DNA of 64,000 bases from Helicobacter sp. 11S03491-1 (lineage in GTDB: Bacteria > Campylobacterota > Campylobacteria > Campylobacterales > Helicobacteraceae), in assembly GCF_002272835.1 (NCBI RefSeq), contig NZ_MLAO01000005.1:62001-126000 (forward strand), given 5' to 3'. The number at the start of each line of letters is the position of its first letter. Positions within the stretch are counted from its first letter, which is position 1. The position numbers were made by a program, and so were the translations under genes. The notes below the pieces were generated by a model. The model was not told the DNA's origin. It ran no database searches and worked only from the letters and a program-made list of their open reading frames with translations. This document shows positions 1,397 to 15,124 of the stretch, in pieces.

Positions 1397-2449
1397 TTAC
1401 ATTAGCCATAATGCTATCTCATCAGCTAAAAAATAATTATTAGCTATGAGTCTGTTTTTTTTGAGATGGCATTTATTTTCTTTGATGAGAATTTCCACTT
1501 TTTTCTCATCTAACAAATCTGTTTTGACACCTAATTCGCATCGCAAACCTAGAAAAATATTTTCTACCCTAAGATTTTCTTCTGTTAATGGCTCTAGTTT
1601 TTTTTCTAATGGAGTTTGGATATATTGTTTGATATTTGAATGAGAATAAATACGATTTTTTCCTATGCGTCCCACTGCTCCTGCACCACAACCAATATAT
1701 TCTTCGCTACGCCAATAAGCCAGGTTGTGTTGGACTTTATAACCTCTTGAATAATTAGAGACTTCATAAGGGTTAAATCCATAAATTTTTAATGCTTGTG
1801 AAATTTCTTCAAAAAATGAATAGGTTTGAGGGTTATTGTCGTATATTTTGCTAAGTTTTGAACCATTTTCGATACTAAGACTATAGGCAGATATATGATT
1901 AATCGGTAGTTTTGAAGCATTTTTTACTTCTTCATGAATGCGTTTTTGGTTATCTTGAGGAGTATCATAGATGAGATCAATGCTGATATTTTTAAATCCA
2001 CTTTTATAAATCAAATCTATAGATTGAAAAATATCTTTATAATTATGGTGGCGTTGTAAAAACAAAAGTTTATCTTCAAAAAAACTTTGGACTCCCAAGC
2101 TGATTCGATTGATACCTAAATCCAACATATCCCTACACCATTGTTGCGTGATTAGGTCCGGATTAGCCTCTATAGTGATTTCACATTTTTTAGAAAGGTT
2201 AGAATAATGATGTATGGATTCAAAAATTTTTTTGTAGGATTTTGAATCTATGGTATTAGGCGTGCCTCCACCAAAAAATATAGAATCAATTTCTGTATTG
2301 CTTTGATTGTTGTGAGTAAGAGAATGGATCAAATCTAATTGAAGGGCTTGCATATAAGGCTGTTTGAGATGATCTTGATTTTCATAAGAGTTAAAAACGC
2401 AATAACCGCATTTATTATTACAAAAAGGTATATGAATATAGAGTATCAT
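1397..2449 (-). CDS. hemW: Radical SAM heme chaperone HemW (HemN-like)
   Basis: This is a radical SAM protein of the HemN/HemW family. The N-terminus IHIPFCNNKCGYCVF carries the CxxxCxxC cluster motif, followed by FFGGGTPNT, a family hallmark. At 350 residues it is shorter than true coproporphyrinogen dehydrogenase HemN (about 450) and fits HemW, a heme-binding chaperone; the H. pylori counterpart at the same locus has been annotated hemN. The ATG at 2449 begins right before the motif, as is typical of HemW. It is transcribed toward tsf and divergent from the cytochrome c gene. A true HemN role cannot be excluded from sequence alone. Confidence 0.85.
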   Translation of the reverse strand: MILYIHIPFCNNKCGYCVFNSYENQDHLKQPYMQALQLDLIHSLTHNNQSNTEIDSIFFGGGTPNTIDSKSYKKIFESIHHYSNLSKKCEITIEANPDLITQQWCRDMLDLGINRISLGVQSFFEDKLLFLQRHHNYKDIFQSIDLIYKSGFKNISIDLIYDTPQDNQKRIHEEVKNASKLPINHISAYSLSIENGSKLSKIYDNNPQTYSFFEEISQALKIYGFNPYEVSNYSRGYKVQHNLAYWRSEEYIGCGAGAVGRIGKNRIYSHSNIKQYIQTPLEKKLEPLTEENLRVENIFLGLRCELGVKTDLLDEKKVEILIKENKCHLKKNRLIANNYFLADEIALWLM

Positions 2450-2543
2450 AATTTGAAAAAACTTTATTTTGATATTTTGTTAAGAAAGTATTAACGATTT
2501 TAGCAATAATATTATATCTTTAATTTCACAAAAAGGAACATGA

Positions 2544-2855
2544 ATGAAAAAATCATTGCTGGCAATTAGTTTATTAGTTTTGGGTGTAGTGGGCTTGCAA
2601 GCAGCAGATCCTGCAACAATTATCAAGACAAAATGTCAAGCTTGCCATGGCCCCAACATGGAAAAGCAAGCTTTGGGTAAAAGCAAGGTTGTAAATACTC
2701 TTGATAGCGCAAAAATCAAAAATGATTTGATGGGCTATAAGGCAGGCAAATTGAATCAATATGGACTAGGCGCAACTATGTGGGGACAAATTAAACCTTT
2801 AAGTGATGAAGAAATTGATGCGCTTGCTAAATATATTCCAACTCTTAAAAAATAA
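2544..2855 (+). CDS. Periplasmic cytochrome c553
   Basis: This is a small monoheme class I cytochrome c of 103 residues. A signal peptide ends around LQAADP (residues 18-23) and is followed by the heme-binding motif CQACH at residues 32-36; the Met of GATMWGQ near residue 79 is the likely axial ligand. In Helicobacter the c553-type cytochrome carries electrons from the bc1 complex to the cbb3 oxidase. It has its own promoter region, an AAAAGGA ribosome binding site and a strong terminator, so it appears monocistronic. Position and size match the cytochrome c553 gene of H. pylori next to hemN and nudH. Confidence 0.92.
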   Translation: MKKSLLAISLLVLGVVGLQAADPATIIKTKCQACHGPNMEKQALGKSKVVNTLDSAKIKNDLMGYKAGKLNQYGLGATMWGQIKPLSDEEIDALAKYIPTLKK

Positions 2856-2867
2856 CTTCTTAATTTT

Positions 2868-2890
2868 TGGGGATTTTTCCCCATTTTTTT
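2868..2890 (+). terminator. Rho-independent terminator after cytochrome c553
   Basis: A short GC stem TGGGG/CCCCA with loop ATTTT or ATTTTT is followed directly by TTTTTTT. It lies 13 bases past the cytochrome stop codon on the same strand. This is the clearest intrinsic terminator in the window. Confidence 0.8.
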
Positions 2891-2972
2891 CTTGATTTTT
2901 ATTCTTATCAAACCAACCTTAAAGCTTTGTTGCATTATAATATTATAAAATATTTTGATTTTGGAGCGTGTT

Positions 2973-3443
2973 ATGAAAAATAACAAAAGCTACAGACCCA
3001 ATGTAGCTGCGATAGTGTTATCATCAAACTATCCTGATAAATGTGAATTTTTTGTTGCACAACGAACAGATATTAAAGGTGCTTGGCAGTTTCCTCAAGG
3101 TGGAATCGACAAGGGAGAAACACCTTTGTACGCACTTTTTCGAGAACTCAAAGAAGAGATAGGAACAGACGAAATAGAAGTAATAGCCGAACACCCTGTT
3201 TGGATTAAATATGATTTTCCTGCCGGTGTTTCTAAAAAACTTTATCCTTTTGATGGACAAAAACAAAAATATTTTCTTGTGAGATTAAAAAATAATGCCA
3301 ATATTAATATCCAAACTGATGTGCCGGAATTTGATGAATATGAATTTGTTGATTATAAAGAATTATTTGAAAAAGTTACACATTTTAAAAAACAAGTCTA
3401 TAGACAAGTGATTGATTATTTTAAAAAAGAAGGATATTTATAA
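2973..3443 (+). CDS. rppH: RNA pyrophosphohydrolase RppH/NudH
   Basis: This is a Nudix hydrolase of 156 residues that removes pyrophosphate from 5' ends of mRNA or cleaves dinucleoside polyphosphates. The Nudix box [20 protein letters not shown] plus IG lies at about residues 45-66, and the preceding GAWQFPQGG is typical of RppH rather than of other Nudix enzymes. I chose the ATG at 2973, which has TTGGAG upstream, over an in-frame TTG at 2955. Its stop overlaps the lysC start by one base, so it leads the operon running to folP. In H. pylori the same neighbour order is known. Confidence 0.93.
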
Positions 3444-4648
3444 TGCTGGTAGTGCAAAAATATGGTGGGACAAGTATGGGAGATTGCCAAAGAATCCAAA
3501 ATGTTGCCAACCGTGTAATGCAAACAAAGAGAACAGGTAAATCTATCGTGGTGGTTGTTTCTGCTATGAGCGGTCAAACAGATACACTTATAGGTTGGAC
3601 AAAATATTTTTCTAAACTTCCTAATGAACGTGAAGTGGATATGGTTTTAAGTAGCGGAGAGCGGGTAACAAGTGCATTATTAGCAATAGCTTTGGAATCA
3701 ATGGGACAAAAAGCAATTTCTTTGAGTGGCAGAGGAGCAGGGATCCTTACAGACAACACACATACTAAAGCAAGGATTGAACATATTGATACAAAAAAGA
3801 TTACAGATTTATTGCTTCAAGACTATATCGTTGTGGTTTCCGGATTTCAAGGTATTGGACAAAATGGAGAAGTTACAACTTTGGGTAGAGGAGGGAGTGA
3901 TTTATCTGCAGTTGCAATTGCAGGGGCATTGAAGGCTGATTTATGTGAGATATATACAGATGTTGATGGTGTATACACTACCGATCCGAGAATTGAGAAA
4001 AAAGCCAAAAAAATTGATAGAATTAGTTATGATGAAATGCTTGAACTTGCTTCAATGGGAGCTAAAGTTTTGCTAAATCGATCTGTAGAATTGGCAAAAA
4101 AATGGAATGTTCCTCTTGTAACTCGAAGTTCATTTACTCAAGATCAAGGTACTTTAATCACAATGGAGGAAAATATTATGGAAAAACCAATAGTAAGTGG
4201 GGTTGCGCTTGATAAGAATCAAGCAAGAGTAAGCATAGCTGATGTAGATGATAGGCCGGGTATTGCAGCAGAGATTTTTGGTGCTCTTGCAGATGATAAT
4301 ATCAATGTAGATATGATTGTGCAAACAATTGGGAGAGATGGCAGAACTGATATTGATTTTACAATCCCCAAAACAGAAGAAGAACAAGCCAAAAAAGTCC
4401 TTGAAAAATTTTTGAATAGCGTAGGATCTATAGATTATGATTGTGAAATTGCTAAAGTTTCTATTGTGGGTGTGGGTATGAAGTCTCACTCAGGTGTTGC
4501 CAGCACGGCTTTTAAAACTTTGGCAAAAGAAAATATCAATATTATGATGATTAGCACAAGTGAAATTAAGGTTTCAATGATTATTGACTTGAAATATGCT
4601 GAACTTGCTGTAAGAACACTTCATTGTGCCTATGAGCTAGACAAATGA
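3443..4648 (+). CDS. lysC: Aspartate kinase
   Basis: Aspartokinase phosphorylates aspartate, the first step to lysine, diaminopimelate, threonine and methionine. The kinase domain opens with VQKYGGTSMGD and has VSAMSGQTD and TTLGRGGSDLSAVA; the C-terminal third carries two ACT domains (for example DRPGIAAEIFGALADDNINVD near residues 269-289), where lysine or threonine usually binds as feedback inhibitor. The length of 401 residues is normal. The start overlaps the rppH stop (TAATG) and the stop overlaps hobA (ATGA), which implies translational coupling. Which amino acid inhibits it cannot be read from sequence. Confidence 0.96.
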   Translation: MLVVQKYGGTSMGDCQRIQNVANRVMQTKRTGKSIVVVVSAMSGQTDTLIGWTKYFSKLPNEREVDMVLSSGERVTSALLAIALESMGQKAISLSGRGAGILTDNTHTKARIEHIDTKKITDLLLQDYIVVVSGFQGIGQNGEVTTLGRGGSDLSAVAIAGALKADLCEIYTDVDGVYTTDPRIEKKAKKIDRISYDEMLELASMGAKVLLNRSVELAKKWNVPLVTRSSFTQDQGTLITMEENIMEKPIVSGVALDKNQARVSIADVDDRPGIAAEIFGALADDNINVDMIVQTIGRDGRTDIDFTIPKTEEEQAKKVLEKFLNSVGSIDYDCEIAKVSIVGVGMKSHSGVASTAFKTLAKENINIMMISTSEIKVSMIIDLKYAELAVRTLHCAYELDK

Positions 4649-5199
4649 ATAGCAATGTTGAAATAGCAGAATGGATGTTAAAAACAATCCGTGAAGAAAG
4701 TGAAAGAGTTGCTTTAATGAGTGGGTGGCTGGAGATGAACCGATTTCAATGGGTTTCTTTGGTGTCTCGCACAATTACTCATATCACCAATGGAGGGACA
4801 ATTTTAGTTTGCACTGATGAAGATAGACAATGGTTTGGAAAATATATCACTTCCTCAATTAATCGTTTTGGCACTCAAAGACCCATACTGCCAATATTTG
4901 ATTTTATGGGGGTATTGTCCAAAGTTTCATTGTTAAAAGAAACTTCCTTGATCAACGATGCTTTAAGTATTTCTTATAAAGATTATGCTTTTTGGTATAT
5001 AGGCAAAACTAATACGCCATTAGCAAATTTGGCATTCAGCAAAGAAAATGGTTTTTTATGGATACTTGATGAATCTATACAAGATGGACTAACGATTGAA
5101 TCTCTTGATGGGATGCTTGATTATAAGCTTATTCAATTATTCAGGATTTTTGAAGAGGCTCTATTTGGATCGTTATTTGGAAGAATAAGTTTAGAATAA
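4645..5199 (+). CDS. hobA: DnaA-binding replication initiation regulator HobA
   Basis: HobA is a Campylobacterota-specific protein that binds domain I of DnaA and helps assemble the initiation complex at oriC; it is a structural counterpart of DiaA, with a SIS-like fold. The 184-residue length, the opening around residues 5-40 (WMLKTIREESERVALMSGWL) and the position between lysC and holB match the H. pylori gene. Overlaps of 4 bases with lysC and 1 base with holB show close coupling. The assignment rests on length, synteny and remembered sequence, not on a catalytic motif. Confidence 0.9.
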   Translation: MNSNVEIAEWMLKTIREESERVALMSGWLEMNRFQWVSLVSRTITHITNGGTILVCTDEDRQWFGKYITSSINRFGTQRPILPIFDFMGVLSKVSLLKETSLINDALSISYKDYAFWYIGKTNTPLANLAFSKENGFLWILDESIQDGLTIESLDGMLDYKLIQLFRIFEEALFGSLFGRISLE

Positions 5200-5831
5200 T
5201 GCAAAGTTATACCGGAAAGATTGTATTAAATAATGATATTTATAAAGAGATTGAAAAGCAAAGTGTTTTGATTCAAGATGAATTTTTACGTGTTTTTGAT
5301 CGTGATGAGTTCAAAATAGAAGATTCTCATGAAGTCATAGCAGAAGCCTATCTCACATCCGGAGAAGTAAAAACTATTATAATTGCTGCTAATTCCTTTA
5401 ATCATTTTGCACAAAATGCATTGCTCAAAGTTCTTGAAGAACCTCCAAATAACACTCGTTTTTTATTGATTGCAAAAAACAAAACAGCTTTTTTGCCGAC
5501 AATCAGATCTCGACTTCCCTTGGAGGACAAAAGAGAGAAGAAAAAAAATGATAGCTTAAGACTTGATGTAAAAAATTTATCTCTCAAAATAATTTATGAT
5601 TTTTTAAAGGAGCTTGAATCTCAAAATAATAATTCAAGAGACATGACAAAACAAAAGATTCAAGCTTTGTTATTTATGCTGGAACAAAATGGAGTGCAAT
5701 TAGATGAATATGAATTGAAAAATTTTGATGAAGCGCTCATGGCTAACCAAAATTATCAAAGAGATATTTATGTGTTTTTACCTCTTTTGTTGATGGTATT
5801 GCGTAAAATAAAAATATCCAGGAAGGGATAA
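5199..5831 (+). CDS. holB: DNA polymerase III subunit delta' (short form)
   Basis: This is a reduced delta' clamp-loader subunit, 210 residues against about 330 in E. coli. The recognisable part is FNHFAQNALLKVLEEPPNNT, the AAA+ delta'/tau region, followed by IRSRLP, the remnant of the SRC sensor motif. There is no Walker A motif, as expected for delta', which does not hydrolyse ATP. Its place directly after hobA, with a 1-base overlap, links two replication factors in one operon. A similarly short version exists in H. pylori at the same locus. Confidence 0.87.
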   Translation: MQSYTGKIVLNNDIYKEIEKQSVLIQDEFLRVFDRDEFKIEDSHEVIAEAYLTSGEVKTIIIAANSFNHFAQNALLKVLEEPPNNTRFLLIAKNKTAFLPTIRSRLPLEDKREKKKNDSLRLDVKNLSLKIIYDFLKELESQNNNSRDMTKQKIQALLFMLEQNGVQLDEYELKNFDEALMANQNYQRDIYVFLPLLLMVLRKIKISRKG

Positions 5832-5832
5832 G

Positions 5833-6978
5833 ATGTTCGTCAAAAGAATTCAATCTCAATCACTCCCTCAAGCGATACAAAAAATTGGTAGTGACAGCAG
5901 TGGCGCAAAAATTATGAATAAAAAAGGAGAAATTTTAACATTTGAAATAAAAAATCTTTCATTGCCTGCGACCATGATTCTTAAACAAGAGGCTATAAGT
6001 GTTGGAGGAGATTTTGCCACCCATAAAGAATGTATTTTGGCAAAAAAATCTCACTATGATGGGGTGTTGATTGGAACAAAAATTCAGATTGAGAGAATTG
6101 TGGCTAAATGCAAGATTCAACCTTTTAATCTCAAGGAATTAGCAGATACTCTTTGCGGGCATCTTAAAAATAGTTTTTCTTGCTCGCCTCAAATCATGGC
6201 AATTATTAATATTACGCCGGATAGTTTTTTTGATCAAAGCAGGTGTGATTCCCAAGAAGCTATCAAAAAGATCTATTCTTTTATTGAAAAAGGTGTGAAA
6301 TTCATTGATATAGGGGCAGCAAGTTCAAGACCCGGAAGTGAATTAATAGAATCTTTTGAAGAAATTAAAAGATTAAGGGAAGTTATTAAAGAAATTTATG
6401 TAAGTAATCTTTTTAAAGAAGCTATTTTTAGTATTGATACTTATAATCCACAAACTGCTGATTTTGCACTCTCTTACGGGTTTGGCATGGTTAATGATAT
6501 TAGTGGTTATAAGCATCCGGATATGGCAAAAATAACTTCTCAATACAAAGCAAAAGCAGTTTTGATGCATTCTAGAGGAACTCCAAAAGATATGCAACAA
6601 TTTATTGATTATGAGAATTTATTTGCACATTTAGATGAGTTTTTTGAACAAAAAATACAATACCTAAAATCATACGGGATTGACGATATTACATTAGATG
6701 TCGGTTTTGGTTTTGCCAAAGAAAAATCTCAAAATTTGTCTCTTATTAAGCACTTAGGACATTTTTTGCATTTTGGATATCCTCTTCTTATAGGGGCAAG
6801 TAGAAAACATACAATCGGACTTATTACTCAAAAAGAAGTTTCAGATAGGATGGCAGGAACATTAGCCCTTCATCTTATGGCTATTGAAAATGGTGCTCAA
6901 ATTTTACGTGTTCATGATGTAGAGGAACATCTTGATATGCTTAGGGTTTATGAAGCTTTGAAGAAAAATGATGAATAA
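5833..6978 (+). CDS. folP: Dihydropteroate synthase
   Basis: FolP joins p-aminobenzoate to dihydropterin pyrophosphate in folate synthesis and is the sulfonamide target. The TIM barrel occupies about residues 120-381, with the pterin-binding signature MAIINITPDSFFDQSR, then DIGAASSRPGS and the C-terminal GASRKHTIG. The first 115 or so residues form an extension not found in E. coli FolP (282 residues); long forms like this occur in Helicobacter and Campylobacter. The gene starts one base after the holB stop and overlaps the next gene by 11 bases. The role of the extension is unknown to me. Confidence 0.94.
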   Translation: MFVKRIQSQSLPQAIQKIGSDSSGAKIMNKKGEILTFEIKNLSLPATMILKQEAISVGGDFATHKECILAKKSHYDGVLIGTKIQIERIVAKCKIQPFNLKELADTLCGHLKNSFSCSPQIMAIINITPDSFFDQSRCDSQEAIKKIYSFIEKGVKFIDIGAASSRPGSELIESFEEIKRLREVIKEIYVSNLFKEAIFSIDTYNPQTADFALSYGFGMVNDISGYKHPDMAKITSQYKAKAVLMHSRGTPKDMQQFIDYENLFAHLDEFFEQKIQYLKSYGIDDITLDVGFGFAKEKSQNLSLIKHLGHFLHFGYPLLIGASRKHTIGLITQKEVSDRMAGTLALHLMAIENGAQILRVHDVEEHLDMLRVYEALKKNDE

Positions 6979-7972
6979 TATAAATATCTATGATATAAAA
7001 ATGATAAAAATGTATTTACAAAACCATGGTTATACTCAAGATGAATTAAAACATCTGGATAATAAAAAAATTTTTGCCCTTTATAAAGATGAGAGTATCA
7101 AAGGAATTTATGAGTTTGAGGGTATTCTTAATCAAGATACTTCTTCTGCGATAGAGAATTTTAAGAATTATAATGTCGATGAGCAACTAAAAGATAAAAT
7201 TCAAAAAGATTCTAGAGATATTTCAAAAATTTATGATTTAATCAATGAATATATTGATGAATATACCTATGATGAGTTTTTGGAAATTTTTAAGACTCAG
7301 TTTAGTAATATCGCCATGAATAAAATAGAAAAAATTCTAAGGATAAAATATAGACAATTTCAAGAAATATGGCTGGAAAAATTAGAATTGAGATTTCAAC
7401 ATTTGCCTGTTGAAGAAAGAATCCCATTGATGAAATATTATGAAAAAAATAGAGATAATATACAAAAGTTGAAGTATGTTTATCATCATTCAGAAAATCC
7501 TACATATATTCATGATATTCAAAGAGTTTCTGAAATCAAACTAAATATTATCAAGACTTTTATGCCGGAGCTTATGGAAGAGAATTATAAAGATTATTAT
7601 GATGAAACACCTGAAAAAATTGCTTTGGTCGATGAAGTGCTTAAACTCACAAGTTCGTATTCAAAGCAATATTTAAAAGATTTAAATATTGCTAAACTTA
7701 AATTCTTGCAAAATGAGGTGATTGAACAAAACAAAAAAGATATTCATGACAAAAAAGTATTTCAAAAATACACAAAAGCATTAGAAGATAGTATAAATAC
7801 TATGGATGATGATGAATTTGGAAAAATATGTCTGAATGCAATTACAGAACTCAATAGCGATCAGATACAAAAAATAATTAATTATTTATCAAATAAAAAT
7901 AAATTATTTCTTAATAAATTTAATACGACTATTAAAGGATATCAAAATATTATAAAAGTAAAATTTATATAG
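6968..7972 (+). CDS. Uncharacterised helical protein following folP
   Basis: I do not recognise this 334-residue protein. It is rich in Lys, Asn, Ile, Asp and Glu, has no signal peptide or membrane segment and only one Cys (in the C-terminal part), and looks almost entirely alpha-helical. Two start codons lie side by side (ATGATG), both inside the end of folP, so it is translationally coupled to the lysC-hobA-holB-folP operon and is probably its last gene. H. pylori also has an uncharacterised gene at this position. The coding frame is convincing because it is long, uninterrupted and collinear with the operon. Confidence 0.75.
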   Translation: MMNNINIYDIKMIKMYLQNHGYTQDELKHLDNKKIFALYKDESIKGIYEFEGILNQDTSSAIENFKNYNVDEQLKDKIQKDSRDISKIYDLINEYIDEYTYDEFLEIFKTQFSNIAMNKIEKILRIKYRQFQEIWLEKLELRFQHLPVEERIPLMKYYEKNRDNIQKLKYVYHHSENPTYIHDIQRVSEIKLNIIKTFMPELMEENYKDYYDETPEKIALVDEVLKLTSSYSKQYLKDLNIAKLKFLQNEVIEQNKKDIHDKKVFQKYTKALEDSINTMDDDEFGKICLNAITELNSDQIQKIINYLSNKNKLFLNKFNTTIKGYQNIIKVKFI

Positions 7973-8088
7973 ATATTTTCTCTATTAGAATAATATAGGT
8001 AGCTAGATTTTTTCTAAAAAATTGTTTTAAATAAATGATTTTTAATAATTTTTTGAGTTAAAATAATAAAAAACATTAAGGACTGGAT

Positions 8089-9258
8089 ATGTATTCTCAA
8101 AAAATTCAAAATCTATCAGAATCTGCAACAATTGCTATGAGTAGATTGGCAGGAGAATTGAAGGCAAAAGGTAGGGATGTTTTGAGCTTCTCTGCAGGAG
8201 AACCTGATTTTGATACTCCTCAAGTGATTAAAGATGAGGCAATCAGGGCTTTAAATTCAGGTTGGACAAAATATACTCCTGTAGCAGGAATCCCTGAATT
8301 GCTTCAGGCAATTAGTTATAAACTTCAAAAAGATAATAAATTATCTTATACTCCTAAAGAAATTTTGGTTAGCAATGGGGCTAAGCAATCCTTATTCAAT
8401 GCATTTCAAGCCTTAATAGAGGAGGGCGATGAAGTTATTATACCTTCTCCTTATTGGGTAACTTATCCGGAATTGGTTATTTATAGTGGGGGTAAGCCTG
8501 TCTTTTTGCCTACAAATGAAAATACAGATTTTAAAATTACCTCCAAACAATTAAAAGAAGCTGTCACTCCTAAAACAAAAATACTTGTTTTGACAACTCC
8601 TTCAAATCCAACAGGGATGGTTTATAGCAAAAATGAACTAACTCAGATAGCCGAAGTGTTGAAAGGAACTAATATTTGGGTAGTCAGTGATGAGATGTAT
8701 GAAAAACTCATTTACGGGGTAGATTTTACATCAAGCGCTTCTATTAGTGAAGATATGATGCAACGCACTATTACGGTAAATGGATTAAGCAAATCAGTGG
8801 CAATGACAGGGTGGAGAATGGGTTATCTTGCTACCAAAGATTTAAAATTAATAAAATTAATAGATAATTTGCAAAGTCAATGCACTTCTAATATTAATTC
8901 AATCACCCAAAGGGCGTCTATAGTTGCTTTAAATGGAGAAGCAGATAGTGATATTGAAATGATGAGAGAAGCTTTTGAAAAACGACGAAATCTAGCTTGC
9001 CAATTAATAGAAGAAATAAGTGGGATGAGTGCTCTGAAACCCCAAGGAGCTTTTTATTTATTTATTAATATCAAAAATATTCATAAATTTAATGGCGATT
9101 CTATGAAGTTTTGCGAGCAGCTTTTGTCTCAAGAAGGGGTTGCATTAGTGCCCGGAAGTGCCTTTGGTATGGATGGTTATGTGCGTTTTTCATTTGCGTG
9201 TTCCAATGAGCAAATTATTGAAGGTTTTAAGAGAATTACTAAATTTATTAATTCTTGA
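8089..9258 (+). CDS. aspB: Aspartate aminotransferase, class I/II PLP enzyme
   Basis: This is a PLP-dependent aminotransferase of subgroup I-gamma, 389 residues. The substrate region FSAGEPDFDTP is near residue 35, TTPSNPTGMVYS near 170, SDEMYEKLIYG near 200, and the PLP lysine sits in NGLSKSVAMTGWRMGY near residue 233. It most likely interconverts aspartate and 2-oxoglutarate with oxaloacetate and glutamate; some relatives also accept prephenate. It has an AAGGAC ribosome binding site and an AT-rich upstream gap of 116 bases. In H. pylori aspB also lies close to xerH, so the restriction-modification genes here look inserted between them. Confidence 0.93.
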   Translation: MYSQKIQNLSESATIAMSRLAGELKAKGRDVLSFSAGEPDFDTPQVIKDEAIRALNSGWTKYTPVAGIPELLQAISYKLQKDNKLSYTPKEILVSNGAKQSLFNAFQALIEEGDEVIIPSPYWVTYPELVIYSGGKPVFLPTNENTDFKITSKQLKEAVTPKTKILVLTTPSNPTGMVYSKNELTQIAEVLKGTNIWVVSDEMYEKLIYGVDFTSSASISEDMMQRTITVNGLSKSVAMTGWRMGYLATKDLKLIKLIDNLQSQCTSNINSITQRASIVALNGEADSDIEMMREAFEKRRNLACQLIEEISGMSALKPQGAFYLFINIKNIHKFNGDSMKFCEQLLSQEGVALVPGSAFGMDGYVRFSFACSNEQIIEGFKRITKFINS

Positions 9259-9646
9259 ATTGATATCTGGTTGCAGATCATTATAGAAAGTAAATTTTTT
9301 TAAAAATACTCAGAAATTCTCAAGTTATTTGCAGTCTTATTGTTGAAAGAGACATGATCATTGTTTATTATTTTGCAAGGGCTTCTTTGGCAATTTTGAT
9401 CTTAAAATTGTCGATAACAATCAGGAAGTTTTATTACAAAATTTTTTAATATAGTATTCTCATTACAAGGACTTTAATGATTAACAAAAGCCAAATGGGT
9501 ATTTTTACTTGCGTAAATTATATAAACTTTGTAAAATAAAAGTATCGAAAAAAGAGGGAAGTTGCATAAAAAGGAAAAAGTATGAGGTTGATACAAGTTC
9601 AAAATAACTTTGAGAAATTATCATCCCAAATCCAAAAACACAAAAA
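9259..9646 (+). other. AT-rich gap with possible gene remnants before the R-M locus
   Basis: No full gene is visible in this 388-base stretch apart from the small ORF at 9582. At 9261-9280 an imperfect stem (TGATATCTG and CAGATCA) follows the aspB stop and could be a weak terminator, with a T run about 13 bases later. On the minus strand near 9368-9430 a run of about 19 codons ends in a sensible C-terminus (IKIAKEALAK and stop) but has stops just upstream, so it may be a decayed gene end or chance. The stretch marks the left edge of the accessory DNA. Confidence 0.4.
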
Positions 9647-9650
9647 ATGA
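9582..9650 (+). CDS. Small ORF coupled to the methylase start
   Basis: A 22-codon ORF (MRLIQVQNNF at its start) has a good AAAAAGGA ribosome binding site, better than that of the methylase. Its TGA overlaps the methylase ATG (ATGA at 9647-9650). It may be a leader peptide coupling translation to the methylase, or the original N-terminus of the methylase in a different frame: a run of six A at 9642-9647 sits at the junction and one extra A would fuse the two frames. It is too short to assign by similarity. Confidence 0.4.
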   Translation: MRLIQVQNNFEKLSSQIQKHKK

Positions 9651-11617
9651 CAAAACTCTCAGATAAGCAGAAATCTTTTCATAACTCAGAAACTAAAACC
9701 TGTAAAATTAACAATAAACGTTATTTGGGAAATAAATACAAATTATTAGATTTTATAAAATCTATTGTGAAGCAAGAATGTGATGGTATAAATATCGTCG
9801 CAGACATATTTGCAGGAACTGGTGTGGTATCTTCGGCATTTATTGATAAAAAACTTATCATTAATGATATTTTATATAGTAATTATATTTGTTATATTGC
9901 TTGGTTTGATTCACAAAAATATGATAAAAATAAAGTTGAAAAATATATAAAACATTATAATGCCCTACATATCAAAACAGATAATTATATGAGCGATAAT
10001 TTTGCAAATACTTTTTTTGACCAAGATACTTGTAGAAAGATTGGTTATATTCGTGAAGATATTGAAAATAATTTTCAAAATAAGAAAATAAACAAAAAAG
10101 AATGGGCATTGCTAATAACTTCTTTATTATATTCTATGGATAGAATTGCAAATACTTGTGGTCATTATGATGCTTATAGACGAGATGGAACTTTTGATAA
10201 GGAGTTAGAATTATTATTGCCTGCACCGGAAGAAAACTTGCAGGATAATCAATTGTTTCATATGGATGCCAATATGCTGGTTCGCGAAATCAAGGCAGAT
10301 TTGGTTTATATTGATCCCCCCTATAATTCCAGACAATATTGTGATATATATCATTTGTTAGAAAATATTGCATTATGGCAAAAACCGGAAGTTTTTGGTA
10401 TTGGGCGAAAAATGGATAGAACAAAATTAAAAAGCGATTATTGCACTGTTGATGCACCAAAAGCTTTTGAAGATTTGATCAAAAATATAAATGCAAAATA
10501 TATCTTACTTTCATATAACAATATGGAAACCAAAGGGGATAATCGCTCTAATGCTCGGATAACTGATGGGGATATTTTGCGAATACTTAAAACTAAGGGT
10601 GAGGTAAGAGTATTTTCTAAAAAATACAAAGCATTCACAACGGGAAAGTCAAATATTAAGGGCAATGAAGAAAGATTATTCTTGTGTATTTGCAAACAAA
10701 TATCAAAGCATCCTATCCAATCACCATTAAATTATGTTGGTGGGAAATTTAAATTATTGCCACAAATACTACCAAAATTTCCGGTAAATATAAAAAACTT
10801 TGTGGATTTGTTTTGTGGTGGGTGTAATGTTGGTATAAATATAAGCGCAGAAAAAATCATCTTCAATGATACTAATGAAAATCTAATAAATATTTATAAA
10901 GTTTTTCAAAATATAGAGAAAACAAAAATTATCACAACAATAGATCAAATCATTGCAAGGTTTGAATTATCACAAAGTGCTATCAATGGATATGATTTTT
11001 ATCTATGTCGCAACAAAGATGGTTTGCAAAAATACAATAAAGATGGTTATATAAAATTACGAGATGTATTTAATAAGATGACAATAAAAAATAATGATTA
11101 TTATTTGATGTTATATGTTTTAATTATATTTTCATTTAATAATCAAATTCGTTTTAATGCTAAAGGGCAATTTAATTTACCGGTTGGGAAACGGGATTTT
11201 AATTCTAAAATGCGAATAAAATTATCTCATTTTATAGATAGAATACAGAAAAATAATTGTGAATTTACAAATCTGGATTTTCGAAAAATATCACCAAAAG
11301 CATTTGGTAAGGATACTTTTGTCTATATTGATCCGCCTTATTTGATAACTTGTGCTACTTATAATGAAAAAAATGGTTGGAGAGAGCAAGATGAGCATGA
11401 TTTATTAGACTATATTCATATGCTCAACACACAAGGTGTAAGATTTGGACTATCAAATGTTCTCACCAATAAAGGCAAGGTAAATACAACCCTCATGAAT
11501 TGGATAAACAAAAATAATTATCGCGTGATTAACTTGGATTATTCTTATGCTAATTCCAATTATCAAACGAAAGATAAAACATCAAAACCACAAGAAGTTT
11601 TGATTGTAAATTATTAA
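9647..11617 (+). CDS. Fused double-domain adenine-specific DNA methyltransferase
   Basis: Two alpha-class (D12/Dam-type) N6-adenine methylases are joined in one 656-residue chain. Domain 1 (about 20-355) has the SAM region RYLGNKYKLLDFI and DIFAGTGVVS and the catalytic YIDPPYNSRQY; domain 2 (about 360-656) has LNYVGGKFKLLPQI, FVDLFCGGCNVG and YIDPPYLITCATYN. Both domains keep complete catalytic motifs. Two domains usually mean that each strand of an asymmetric site is methylated separately, as in the FokI system. It is followed 12 bases later by an AlwI-family endonuclease gene, so together they form a type IIS-like system. The exact site is not readable from the sequence. Confidence 0.9.
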   Translation: MTKLSDKQKSFHNSETKTCKINNKRYLGNKYKLLDFIKSIVKQECDGINIVADIFAGTGVVSSAFIDKKLIINDILYSNYICYIAWFDSQKYDKNKVEKYIKHYNALHIKTDNYMSDNFANTFFDQDTCRKIGYIREDIENNFQNKKINKKEWALLITSLLYSMDRIANTCGHYDAYRRDGTFDKELELLLPAPEENLQDNQLFHMDANMLVREIKADLVYIDPPYNSRQYCDIYHLLENIALWQKPEVFGIGRKMDRTKLKSDYCTVDAPKAFEDLIKNINAKYILLSYNNMETKGDNRSNARITDGDILRILKTKGEVRVFSKKYKAFTTGKSNIKGNEERLFLCICKQISKHPIQSPLNYVGGKFKLLPQILPKFPVNIKNFVDLFCGGCNVGINISAEKIIFNDTNENLINIYKVFQNIEKTKIITTIDQIIARFELSQSAINGYDFYLCRNKDGLQKYNKDGYIKLRDVFNKMTIKNNDYYLMLYVLIIFSFNNQIRFNAKGQFNLPVGKRDFNSKMRIKLSHFIDRIQKNNCEFTNLDFRKISPKAFGKDTFVYIDPPYLITCATYNEKNGWREQDEHDLLDYIHMLNTQGVRFGLSNVLTNKGKVNTTLMNWINKNNYRVINLDYSYANSNYQTKDKTSKPQEVLIVNY

Positions 11618-11629
11618 AGAAAGTTAATA

Positions 11630-13478
11630 ATGCAAACATTATGGAATATATCTACAACAATAAGAAACCCGGAAAGAGTGCCTATGTTTTTACAAATAGC
11701 GGCATTGCTTGAAGGAAAAATTTGGGATAAAGACAAATCAATGCAGGTTTCAAATACTGCTTATACAGCATCGTAAATACTTAAGTGAAAATGAAAGCGC
11801 TCTAACTTTTAATAATTTATCTGCCAAACAAATCAAATTACTAAAAGATAAGACCATAGATATGACTTACAAACAAGCACAAGACATATTTAACGCAAAA
11901 AATTACAAAGATCCGGATATGATGCGTGGTCGACAATCCATGAACCCGTTGACTAAACTAGGGTTGATACAAATTGATAAAAATAAGATAATCCATTTGA
12001 GTAATGTTGGTCGAAAACTCTATGATGGATCTATAACTTGGGATGATTTTGTCTTAGATAGTTTATTGAAATATCAATTGCCAAATCCAACAACTGAAGG
12101 GTTTAAGGATTGGAATATAAAACCATTTATTGCGATTTTACATCTCATTAAAAGAGTCAATCAATTGTGCGTTAGTTATGGATTAAAATCAAAAGGAATC
12201 TCAACGGAAGAATTTGGTATATTTGCTTTATCTTTAAATGATTATAAAAATATAGACAAAGTTGCCAATGATTTATTGTCTTATAGAAAAAATTTCGAGA
12301 AGATACATCCTGCTAATTATAAAAATAACCATGAATATGAAATCGCTTCTGAAGAATATATGAAAAATTTTATAGAAAAATATCTCTTTGACTTTAATAA
12401 TCCGGTTAAAAATGCTTATGAATATGGTGATAGCATGATACGTTATTTGCGACAAACAAAGTATATTTTATTTCGTGGGAAGTATGATCGCCAATATATT
12501 GACCTTGAACCATGTCGCATGATTGAAATTGATTCAATACTTGCTGTTGATAATGCGTCCAATAAAACATACACAAAAGAACAATGGCAAAAATATATGG
12601 GAACTTATGGTGCTTATGAATTGCCATTTGAAACTATTGATAAACTTACAAAGATCTATGATTCTATTATCCCTGATATCCGTACTCTAGAGAATAAACT
12701 AGGCAAAAAAGTAAAATTATTTGAAAAACCAAACATAAAAGACAAATTAAAAGCTATAATCAAAATAATGCGTGAATATCGCATTGAATTAAAGAATTTG
12801 GAAATCAAATTTGATTATGCTTATGATACATCAAAAATTGAACAGACAATAAAAATACTCAGTGATTTAGCGACTAATCATAAAAATGATAATATGGTAA
12901 GTAAGCCATCAATCGAACTTGAAAAATGGACAAATGTTGCTCTAAATATTATCAATGATGCAGAATCTATAAAGCCAAATTTCCCTATGGGCGATGACAA
13001 TGAGCCAACATTTACTGCCCCTGCCGGTGTGTCAGATATAGAATGTAATTATGGAAAGTTTGGCGTGATTTGTGAGGTTACAATGCTAAAAGGACGGGAT
13101 CAATGGTATAATGAAGGAATACCGGTCATGCGTCATTTACGAGATTATGAGGATAGATTTCCAAATATACCAAACTATTGTTTGTTTATTGCTCCATCAA
13201 TTCATGAAGACACTATTAGCACTTATTGGAATGCCCTCAAATATGAATTTAAAGGTAAAAAACAAAGGATTGTTCCTATTACAATCAAACAATTAACTTA
13301 TATATTATCCCTTGTAAAACAGTTAAGAGAAAGTAGAAATAATATATATTGCGAAAATATATTGGATTTATATAATCGTTGTATTGATGTAAGTAAGATT
13401 AATAATTCTACTCAATGGCTTGATTATATTGATGAAGAGCTGGAGAAATGGCGATCACAGTTGTTACAAAATCTATAA
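11630..13478 (+). pseudogene. AlwI-family restriction endonuclease, frameshifted near the start
   Basis: The true start is ATG 11630, giving LWNISTTIRNPERVPMFLQI and then ALLEGKIWDKD, the typical AlwI-family N-terminus. This frame stops at about 11775, while the rest of the protein continues in the +1 frame, picked up as RFQILLIQHRKYL from about 11747 to the stop at 13478. One extra A in the run at 11735-11737 (ACAAATC) would explain the break, restoring WDKDNQ-CRFQIL and a protein of about 615 residues. The catalytic region is intact: SDIECNYGKF and CEVTML near the C-terminus, then VMRHLRDYE. Either the enzyme is inactive, or this is a sequencing error or frameshift. A TTG at 11709 could start a version lacking the N-terminus. 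Confidence 0.82.
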
Positions 13479-14041
13479 AATTTATTTTAAAATCAATGTT
13501 TATTAAGTATGGTATTGGCAGTAGCCGGATAATAGAGCAGGGCGGGTTGATTATCTTAATTTCTTTGGGATTTCTTGTGTCGGTTTAAATTGCTAAATTA
13601 CTAATTAAATTACCAAAGGATAAAAGCAGGAACAGGAAATAAAACAAATTTTATTCATAAAATGACAAGAAATAACAATAGAGTTTTTTAGAAGAAAATT
13701 TAAAATAAATTGATACAAAAATTACCACCTTTAGGCTAATGCAGGGTAAGTTTGCTAAAGTTACCAAAGCTCTGGATTTGAAAATATTTTTAGGGACAGG
13801 AATAAATTTCGCAAGGTTTTATTCTCAAACATATCGTGCAACAAACCCCTAAGGGCAAATATCTGGGTGGATGGGGAATTATCAAGGGATTAGATTAGAT
13901 TGGCTGTAGTTTGAAAATTATAGTTTTCATAAGTAAAATAAATAAATTTTAGGTTATAATAATCAAATCAAGCAAGTTGAACGTGCAGGAAAAACTATAA
14001 TCCCTAAATCCCTAATAAAAAAGGTGAAATAAGGCAAGGTT
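13479..14041 (+). other. Gene-poor stretch between the endonuclease and xerH
   Basis: No intact gene is seen in these 563 bases. Short open fragments occur: 13496-13588 (30 residues, hydrophobic end GGLIILISLGFLVSV), 13739-13851 (37 residues) and a start-less run ending near 14033 (VERAGKTIIPKSLIKKVK and stop). They have no recognised family and may be remnants of decayed genes or chance ORFs. The only element I can name is the dif-like site at 13907-13936. The region forms the right edge of the accessory block. Confidence 0.4.
13907..13936 (+). other. Putative difH chromosome dimer resolution site
   Basis: Two half-sites in inverted orientation, with TGAAAA at 13912-13917 and TTTTCA at 13924-13929, flank a 6-bp spacer TTATAG, the geometry of Xer recombination sites. 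Read on the minus strand the outer arms (TTACTTATGAAAACT and ATTTTCAAACTA) closely resemble the difH site as I remember it from H. pylori. It lies 105 bases upstream of xerH, the usual place for this single-recombinase system. Exact comparison with published difH sequences was not possible here. Confidence 0.72.
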
Positions 14042-15124
14042 ATGAGATATATTTTAGAATCTCCTCAAAAAGATTTTTTATCCAATTTGTTATTTTGGTG
14101 CGCTAGATTTATTCGTTATAAAATGACGACTCTTTCTAACTCTAACATAAAAGATAAGAAATGTATTGGAATGTGTATGGAAAAACTCCAAAATAATATT
14201 GCAAGCATTGATGATTTGATTAATACTTGCAAAGATGCGCGTAATGCAGGTCTCATCGGGATAAATACTTATGCCCAACCTATTTTGAAGCTTTATAAAC
14301 ATTTATCTGAGAATCACTTAACCTCTATGAAACAAATTGATGAGGAAATTTTGAGTGATTTTTTAGCCGTGCAAACCGGTGGTTTAAGCGCAGCAAGTAA
14401 GAAAAATTATCGTATTGCACTTTTGGGACTTTTTGGTTATATTGATAGGCAGAATCAAGACAATGAAGGAAAATCTTATATCTATAATATTGAACTCAAG
14501 AATATTGGTGGGATCAAGGGAAAATCAGGACAAAAGTTACCTGCACATTTGAATGAGAATGAGTTAGAAAAATTTCTAGAAGGTATTGAGAAATTTGAAA
14601 TACCTCAAACTATTCGGGCAAGAAATCGATTAATGATAAAAATAATTATTTATACCGGTATTCGTGTAAGTGAGATGTTGTATTTAAAAAACAAAGATAT
14701 TTTACCTGAAGATAACGTCTATCTTTTGAACATCAGAGGAAAAGGCGATAAATATCGAGTAGTGATGATTAAGTCTTGCCATATTCGGAGTTTATTAGAG
14801 GAATGGCTTATAGAACGATCCAAGCTAACAACCACCATTCAAGATGGATTATTGTTTTGCAATCAAAAAGGCAAGGCATTAAGTCAGGCTTATATTTATC
14901 AGATTGTTGAAAAGATCCTTATGAGTGTAGGAATTAGAAAGAAAAAAAATGGAGCGCATATGCTAAGACATTCTTTTGCTACTTTGTTATATCAAAAACG
15001 ACATGATTTGGTATTGGTGCAAGAGGCACTTGGGCATGCAGATCTAAATACAAGCAGAATTTATATGCATTTCGATAAAAAACGTCTCATAGAAGCTGCA
15101 AGCATCATGGATGATATTAGTTAA
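14042..15124 (+). CDS. xerH: Tyrosine recombinase XerH
   Basis: XerH is the single Xer recombinase of Helicobacter and Campylobacter; it resolves chromosome dimers at difH near the terminus. The N-terminal DNA-binding domain contains NAGLIGINTYAQPILK and TGGLSAASKKNYRIALLGLF; the catalytic domain contains TGIRVSEML (first Arg), RGKGDKYR (Lys), HMLRHSFATLLYQ (His and Arg), LGHADLNTSRIYMHF (His and the tyrosine nucleophile). Its 360 residues match H. pylori XerH closely over the whole length as I remember it. The dif-like site upstream supports the same role. It should not be mistaken for a phage integrase. Confidence 0.95.
   Translation: MRYILESPQKDFLSNLLFWCARFIRYKMTTLSNSNIKDKKCIGMCMEKLQNNIASIDDLINTCKDARNAGLIGINTYAQPILKLYKHLSENHLTSMKQIDEEILSDFLAVQTGGLSAASKKNYRIALLGLFGYIDRQNQDNEGKSYIYNIELKNIGGIKGKSGQKLPAHLNENELEKFLEGIEKFEIPQTIRARNRLMIKIIIYTGIRVSEMLYLKNKDILPEDNVYLLNIRGKGDKYRVVMIKSCHIRSLLEEWLIERSKLTTTIQDGLLFCNQKGKALSQAYIYQIVEKILMSVGIRKKKNGAHMLRHSFATLLYQKRHDLVLVQEALGHADLNTSRIYMHFDKKRLIEAASIMDDIS

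Follow-up and report, generated by a model that had tools for sequence, protein, structure and literature searches.

The AlwI restriction-modification (R-M) system combines a restriction enzyme that recognises GGATC and cuts at 4/5 with two fused methyltransferases, one for GGATC and the other for GATCC (PMC4081073). In the N.BspD6I/N.BstNBI large subunit (2ewf, 6qnz), which targets GAGTC and pairs with a small subunit in a heterodimer, site binding is the task of the N-terminal domain and cutting that of the C-terminal one (PMC6261011). In Helicobacter pylori, Hpy99III and HpyI are orphan methylases, intact and without a working cognate nuclease (PMC10423294). The locus described here lies on the forward strand of a 64,000-nt stretch of DNA from Helicobacter sp. 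11S03491-1, the whole of which we call the window. As in the AlwI system, a PF09491 nuclease stands beside a single-chain two-domain adenine methylase with one Dam-like half, whereas the window nuclease is frameshifted and its GGATC site is putative. With the N.BspD6I/N.BstNBI large subunit the nuclease shares a homologous core and C-terminal domain and the same catalytic D/E residues, and its N-terminal WYVSCSPRSPEK motif has a weak counterpart in LWNISTTIRNPER of N.BspD6I; in contrast with that heterodimer, no small-subunit gene was seen in window positions 13479-14041. The resemblance to Hpy99III and HpyI lies in the intact methylase lacking a working nuclease partner, although those enzymes have other specificities and the nuclease remnant of the window is still nearly whole.

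The methylase gene (9647-11617), located upstream of the nuclease, encodes an intact 656-aa fusion of two N6-adenine methyltransferase domains that reproduces the AlwI-type layout of two adenine methylases in one chain beside the restriction enzyme. It matches PF02086 in two stretches (E 4e-66) and TIGR00571 (dam) above cut-off over residues 359-655, which makes its C-terminal half Dam-like, and PADLOC classifies it as MTase_II (E 1.5e-234). The N-terminal half is 46-51% identical to the stand-alone M1 methylases of relatives, the DPPY motif is kept in both halves (DPPYNSRQY in the N-terminal and DPPYLI in the C-terminal one), and the whole protein shares 59-61% identity with the fused methylases of loci L044 and L045. 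By analogy with AlwI, our best guess is that the system would recognise GGATC. This sequence is not avoided, occurring at 1.12 of its expected frequency in 344 kb, and GAGTC stands at 0.69; since relatives of the same genus devoid of the system have similar ratios, k-mer avoidance does not single out a site. In another genome of the same genus (G005, loci L080-L083), GGATG was seen 15 times against 143 expected in 80 kb, an avoidance that suggests a FokI-like system acting there.

The adjacent nuclease gene (11630-13478) is split between two reading frames. The first opens with the ATG at 11630, 13 nt past the methylase stop at 11617, reads MQTLWNISTTIRNPERVP...EGKIWDKDK (from its start, MQTLWNISTTIRNPERVPMFLQIAALLEGKIWDKDK...) and ends after 48 codons at the TAA in 11774-11776. 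This piece (11630-11776) is too short for Pfam, but searches paired it with the N-terminal ends of relatives (E 1e-9 to 2e-6), to which its codons 1-35 can be aligned. Already open before 11709, the +1 frame runs to the TAA at 13476-13478 and carries the remainder of the enzyme (11739-13478), including the catalytic domain. It covers 441 of the 441 positions of the PF09491 (RE_AlwI) profile, with 236.6 bits against a cut-off of 23.1 (E 7e-70), and also matches N.BspD6I (2ewf, E 3e-24). The catalytic centre, D-(12)-E-VT-(11)-NEG at 13035-13127, retains all the D...E-VT...E residues that are invariant in the alignment of relatives, and in the alignment with N.BspD6I its D and E's fall opposite D456, E469 and E482, the chain numbering being shifted by 6. 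An earlier note on this DNA had recognised an AlwI-family endonuclease starting at 11630, with the catalytic region in the +1 frame beside an intact methylase, all of which agrees with these results except for one detail: 11630 is the ATG itself and LWNIS begins at codon 4. The gene thus passes the profile cut-off and has the catalytic residues, whereas a single intact frame that includes the N-terminal recognition part is absent. On sequence grounds, we file it as a probable pseudogene of the AlwI family (PF09491, Type IIS) rather than as an active enzyme.

Comparison with relatives, which the earlier note had proposed as a way of fixing the indel, narrowed the lesion considerably. Eight relatives (38-51% identity) turned up among 399 genomes from the same order, all of them with the N-terminus LWSxSTTxRNPER and seven open throughout. 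In the GTDB collection of genomes, the single protein as query gave no matches and the alignment gave 80 loci. The resulting MAFFT alignment comprises 78 full-length sequences, with at least three pairs representing the same record twice (L044/L110, L045/L100 and L046/L115). Some duplicates included, the N-terminal motif is in frame in all 78, and in every one of them exactly four residues separate a conserved W/F from an invariant Q. The window gene has its W codon at 11723 and its Q codon at 11739, which makes the spacer 13 nt long instead of the 12 nt of the 78 relatives, implying one net extra nucleotide within 11726-11738. As far as the sequences go, this proves that the two frames are one gene broken by one net inserted nucleotide in that interval. 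The earlier note had blamed an extra A in the AAA at 11735-11737 (codon 36 of the 11630 frame); the single net insertion stands and this triplet lies inside the interval, but the choice of the exact base goes beyond what the 13-nt interval can specify. A natural start at the TTG at 11709, which the same note had suggested looking for among homologues, is excluded by the presence of the upstream N-terminus in every full-length relative. Three Treponema loci (L106, L108 and L112) were considered as natural short starts and discarded: they begin about 90 residues in, without an intact fused methylase, and are remnants.

We consider it probable that the system was acquired, that the nuclease frameshift is recent and real, and that restriction is off with the fused methylase presumably still active. 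The most serious competitor, which we regard as unlikely, is that the nuclease is in fact whole and working and that the additional nucleotide arose in sequencing or assembly. One lesion of 1 nt in a gene that is open elsewhere is how a miscalled intact gene would look, the assembly is a draft in 33 contigs, and many annotated single frameshifts have turned out to be false on resequencing, as exemplified by Brucella (PMC3488263). As a proxy for assembly quality, we compared the predicted proteins of five genomes of the same genus with the window. They covered ~40.7 kb, in which no other gene showed a same-strand frame change, all flagged items being antisense ORFs or start extensions; the assembly is therefore not generally indel-ridden, which favours a real mutation. 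Moreover, the local A runs of just 3-5 nt are atypical as error spots of short reads, and the lesion hits a class of genes that is often lost. Among the possibilities that the earlier note had left open, slippage is unlikely given these short runs, and a sequencing error is made less likely by the ~40.7 kb free of other frameshifts.

That the gene works in its present two-frame state is very improbable, whether by +1 recoding or by re-initiation that gives a protein truncated at its N-terminus and altered in activity (non-specific or regulatory, for example). Helicobacter does have phase-variable R-M genes, reportedly including the modH phasevarion, and slippage or a programmed +1 frameshift could in principle yield the full-length enzyme in part of the population. 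Nevertheless, no simple-sequence repeat tract occurs at the frameshift, the longest homopolymers around it being T5, A5 and A4, a +1 shift is required whereas a -1 shift meets stops at once, relatives are all in frame without any shift, and inspection of codons 33-36 revealed no +1 recoding signal (stop or rare codon). We rejected phase variation and programmed shifting on the short local runs and the frame layout, and give a gene of this kind almost no credence. Equally hard to believe is a shorter functional protein initiated at the TTG at 11709 or the ATG at 11862 with a dispensable N-terminus. The +1 ORF is long and a weak purine stretch (AAAAGATAAG) precedes ATG 11862, but TTG 11709 lacks a ribosome-binding site, the first ~10 residues read from it align with none of the relatives, and no intact relative starts there. 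Furthermore, the missing region is part of the DNA-recognition portion of N.BspD6I. Given that the N-terminal domain of N.BspD6I binds the site (PMC6261011), a product lacking its N-terminus is expected not to recognise DNA; by analogy, an internally initiated product would be without part of the recognition region.

Under the favoured reading, a real frameshift in an acquired system, the lesion must be recent because the 579 codons of the remainder are still free of stops. Given that 5.8% of point substitutions create a stop codon, the upper limit (95% confidence) on the neutral substitutions accumulated since then is about 50 (2.9%); indels, which are outside this substitution estimate, would tighten the age bound. 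The window nuclease differs at six of the 110 positions that are nearly invariant, a higher count than in most relatives. Two of these departures are common to its nearest relatives L088 and L161, and the others (R295C, Q497I, F506Y and Y540F, in two-frame numbering) may reflect relaxed selection.

The R-M genes are inserted between an aminotransferase gene (aspC), which ends at 9258, and a difH site (13908-13946, forward strand) that fits the published difH motifs (PMC2731167 Table 2) and constitutes their right-hand neighbour. It is followed by a xerH-like tyrosine recombinase gene (14042-15124, forward strand), a conserved flank outside the R-M system. The difH site is conserved between aspC and xerH in G001, G004, G005 and G006; in two of these genomes of the same genus, G004 and G005, aspC is followed directly by difH and xerH with no insertion. 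None of the six other genomes of the genus that were searched contains the endonuclease. These absences, together with the joined aspC-difH-xerH arrangement, make horizontal acquisition of the R-M system probable. Judging from sequence identity, the closest nuclease relatives sit in other phyla (L088, a Rhodospirillales MAG, 55%), followed by a Helicobacteraceae MAG (L110/L044, ~47%); in these full-length AlwI-like systems, as in the window, the fused methylase directly precedes a nuclease of the same length and motifs, although theirs is in one frame. Collections of plasmids and phages yielded distant matches only (<=40% identity). Insertion mediated by difH/XerH was discarded for want of evidence: a single difH copy was found in the window, and no repeat flanks the R-M genes. 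At the corresponding place in another genome of the genus (L070, G006:C1:133000-148500), a ~10 kb block of small ORFs (about 1943-11926) between the aminotransferase gene and xerH is bounded by two difH-like copies (1943-1972 and 11899-11926) and looks like a dif/XerH-integrated mobile element.

Other copies of the family are broken too. In G157/L051 the nuclease is frameshifted at another place, near residue 390. Nuclease remnants occur in four Treponema loci, with a methylase that is also incomplete or partial. Both cases support recurrent decay. In L164 (Treponema putidum OMZ 758) and the Treponema loci L106, L108 and L112, the 5' part of the nuclease gene has been lost or swapped for another gene. 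The methylases around AlwI-family nucleases come in two layouts among loci L088-L167 and L044-L051: either M1 and a Dam-like half are fused in one upstream protein, or M1 lies upstream and an unrelated methylase of the beta type (DPPYNLSGNG) downstream. Sulfurimonas L148, with M1, the nuclease and a separate Dam-like M2, is a possible intermediate between methylase layouts.

We propose that an AlwI-type Type IIS R-M system was gained between the aminotransferase gene and difH-xerH, and that a recent, real frameshift then struck codons 33-36 of the nuclease. Translation from 11630 would end after 48 codons, yielding no full-length nuclease and leaving restriction off, whereas the fused methyltransferase would be unaffected and would presumably methylate adenine on both strands of one asymmetric site. 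In Type II systems, loss of the nuclease with the methylase kept is tolerated. Nuclease-first loss is the tolerated order because the reverse is lethal, and the broken nuclease beside an intact methylase bears out the earlier note's view that the nuclease went first. We infer that restriction has been lost and methylation persists; the present function of the locus is likely methylation without restriction, by a methylase that would now be an orphan heading for decay or co-option. A recent pseudogenisation like this one is nothing unusual for systems of this known kind; such decay is common and the nuclease loss would not surprise a specialist. The locus offers one more clean example of a Type IIS R-M system that lost its nuclease first, at a stage so early that the catalytic domain is still whole. 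For the strain itself, methylating without restricting at this site, as the locus implies, would affect phage sensitivity, transformation and the interpretation of its methylome.
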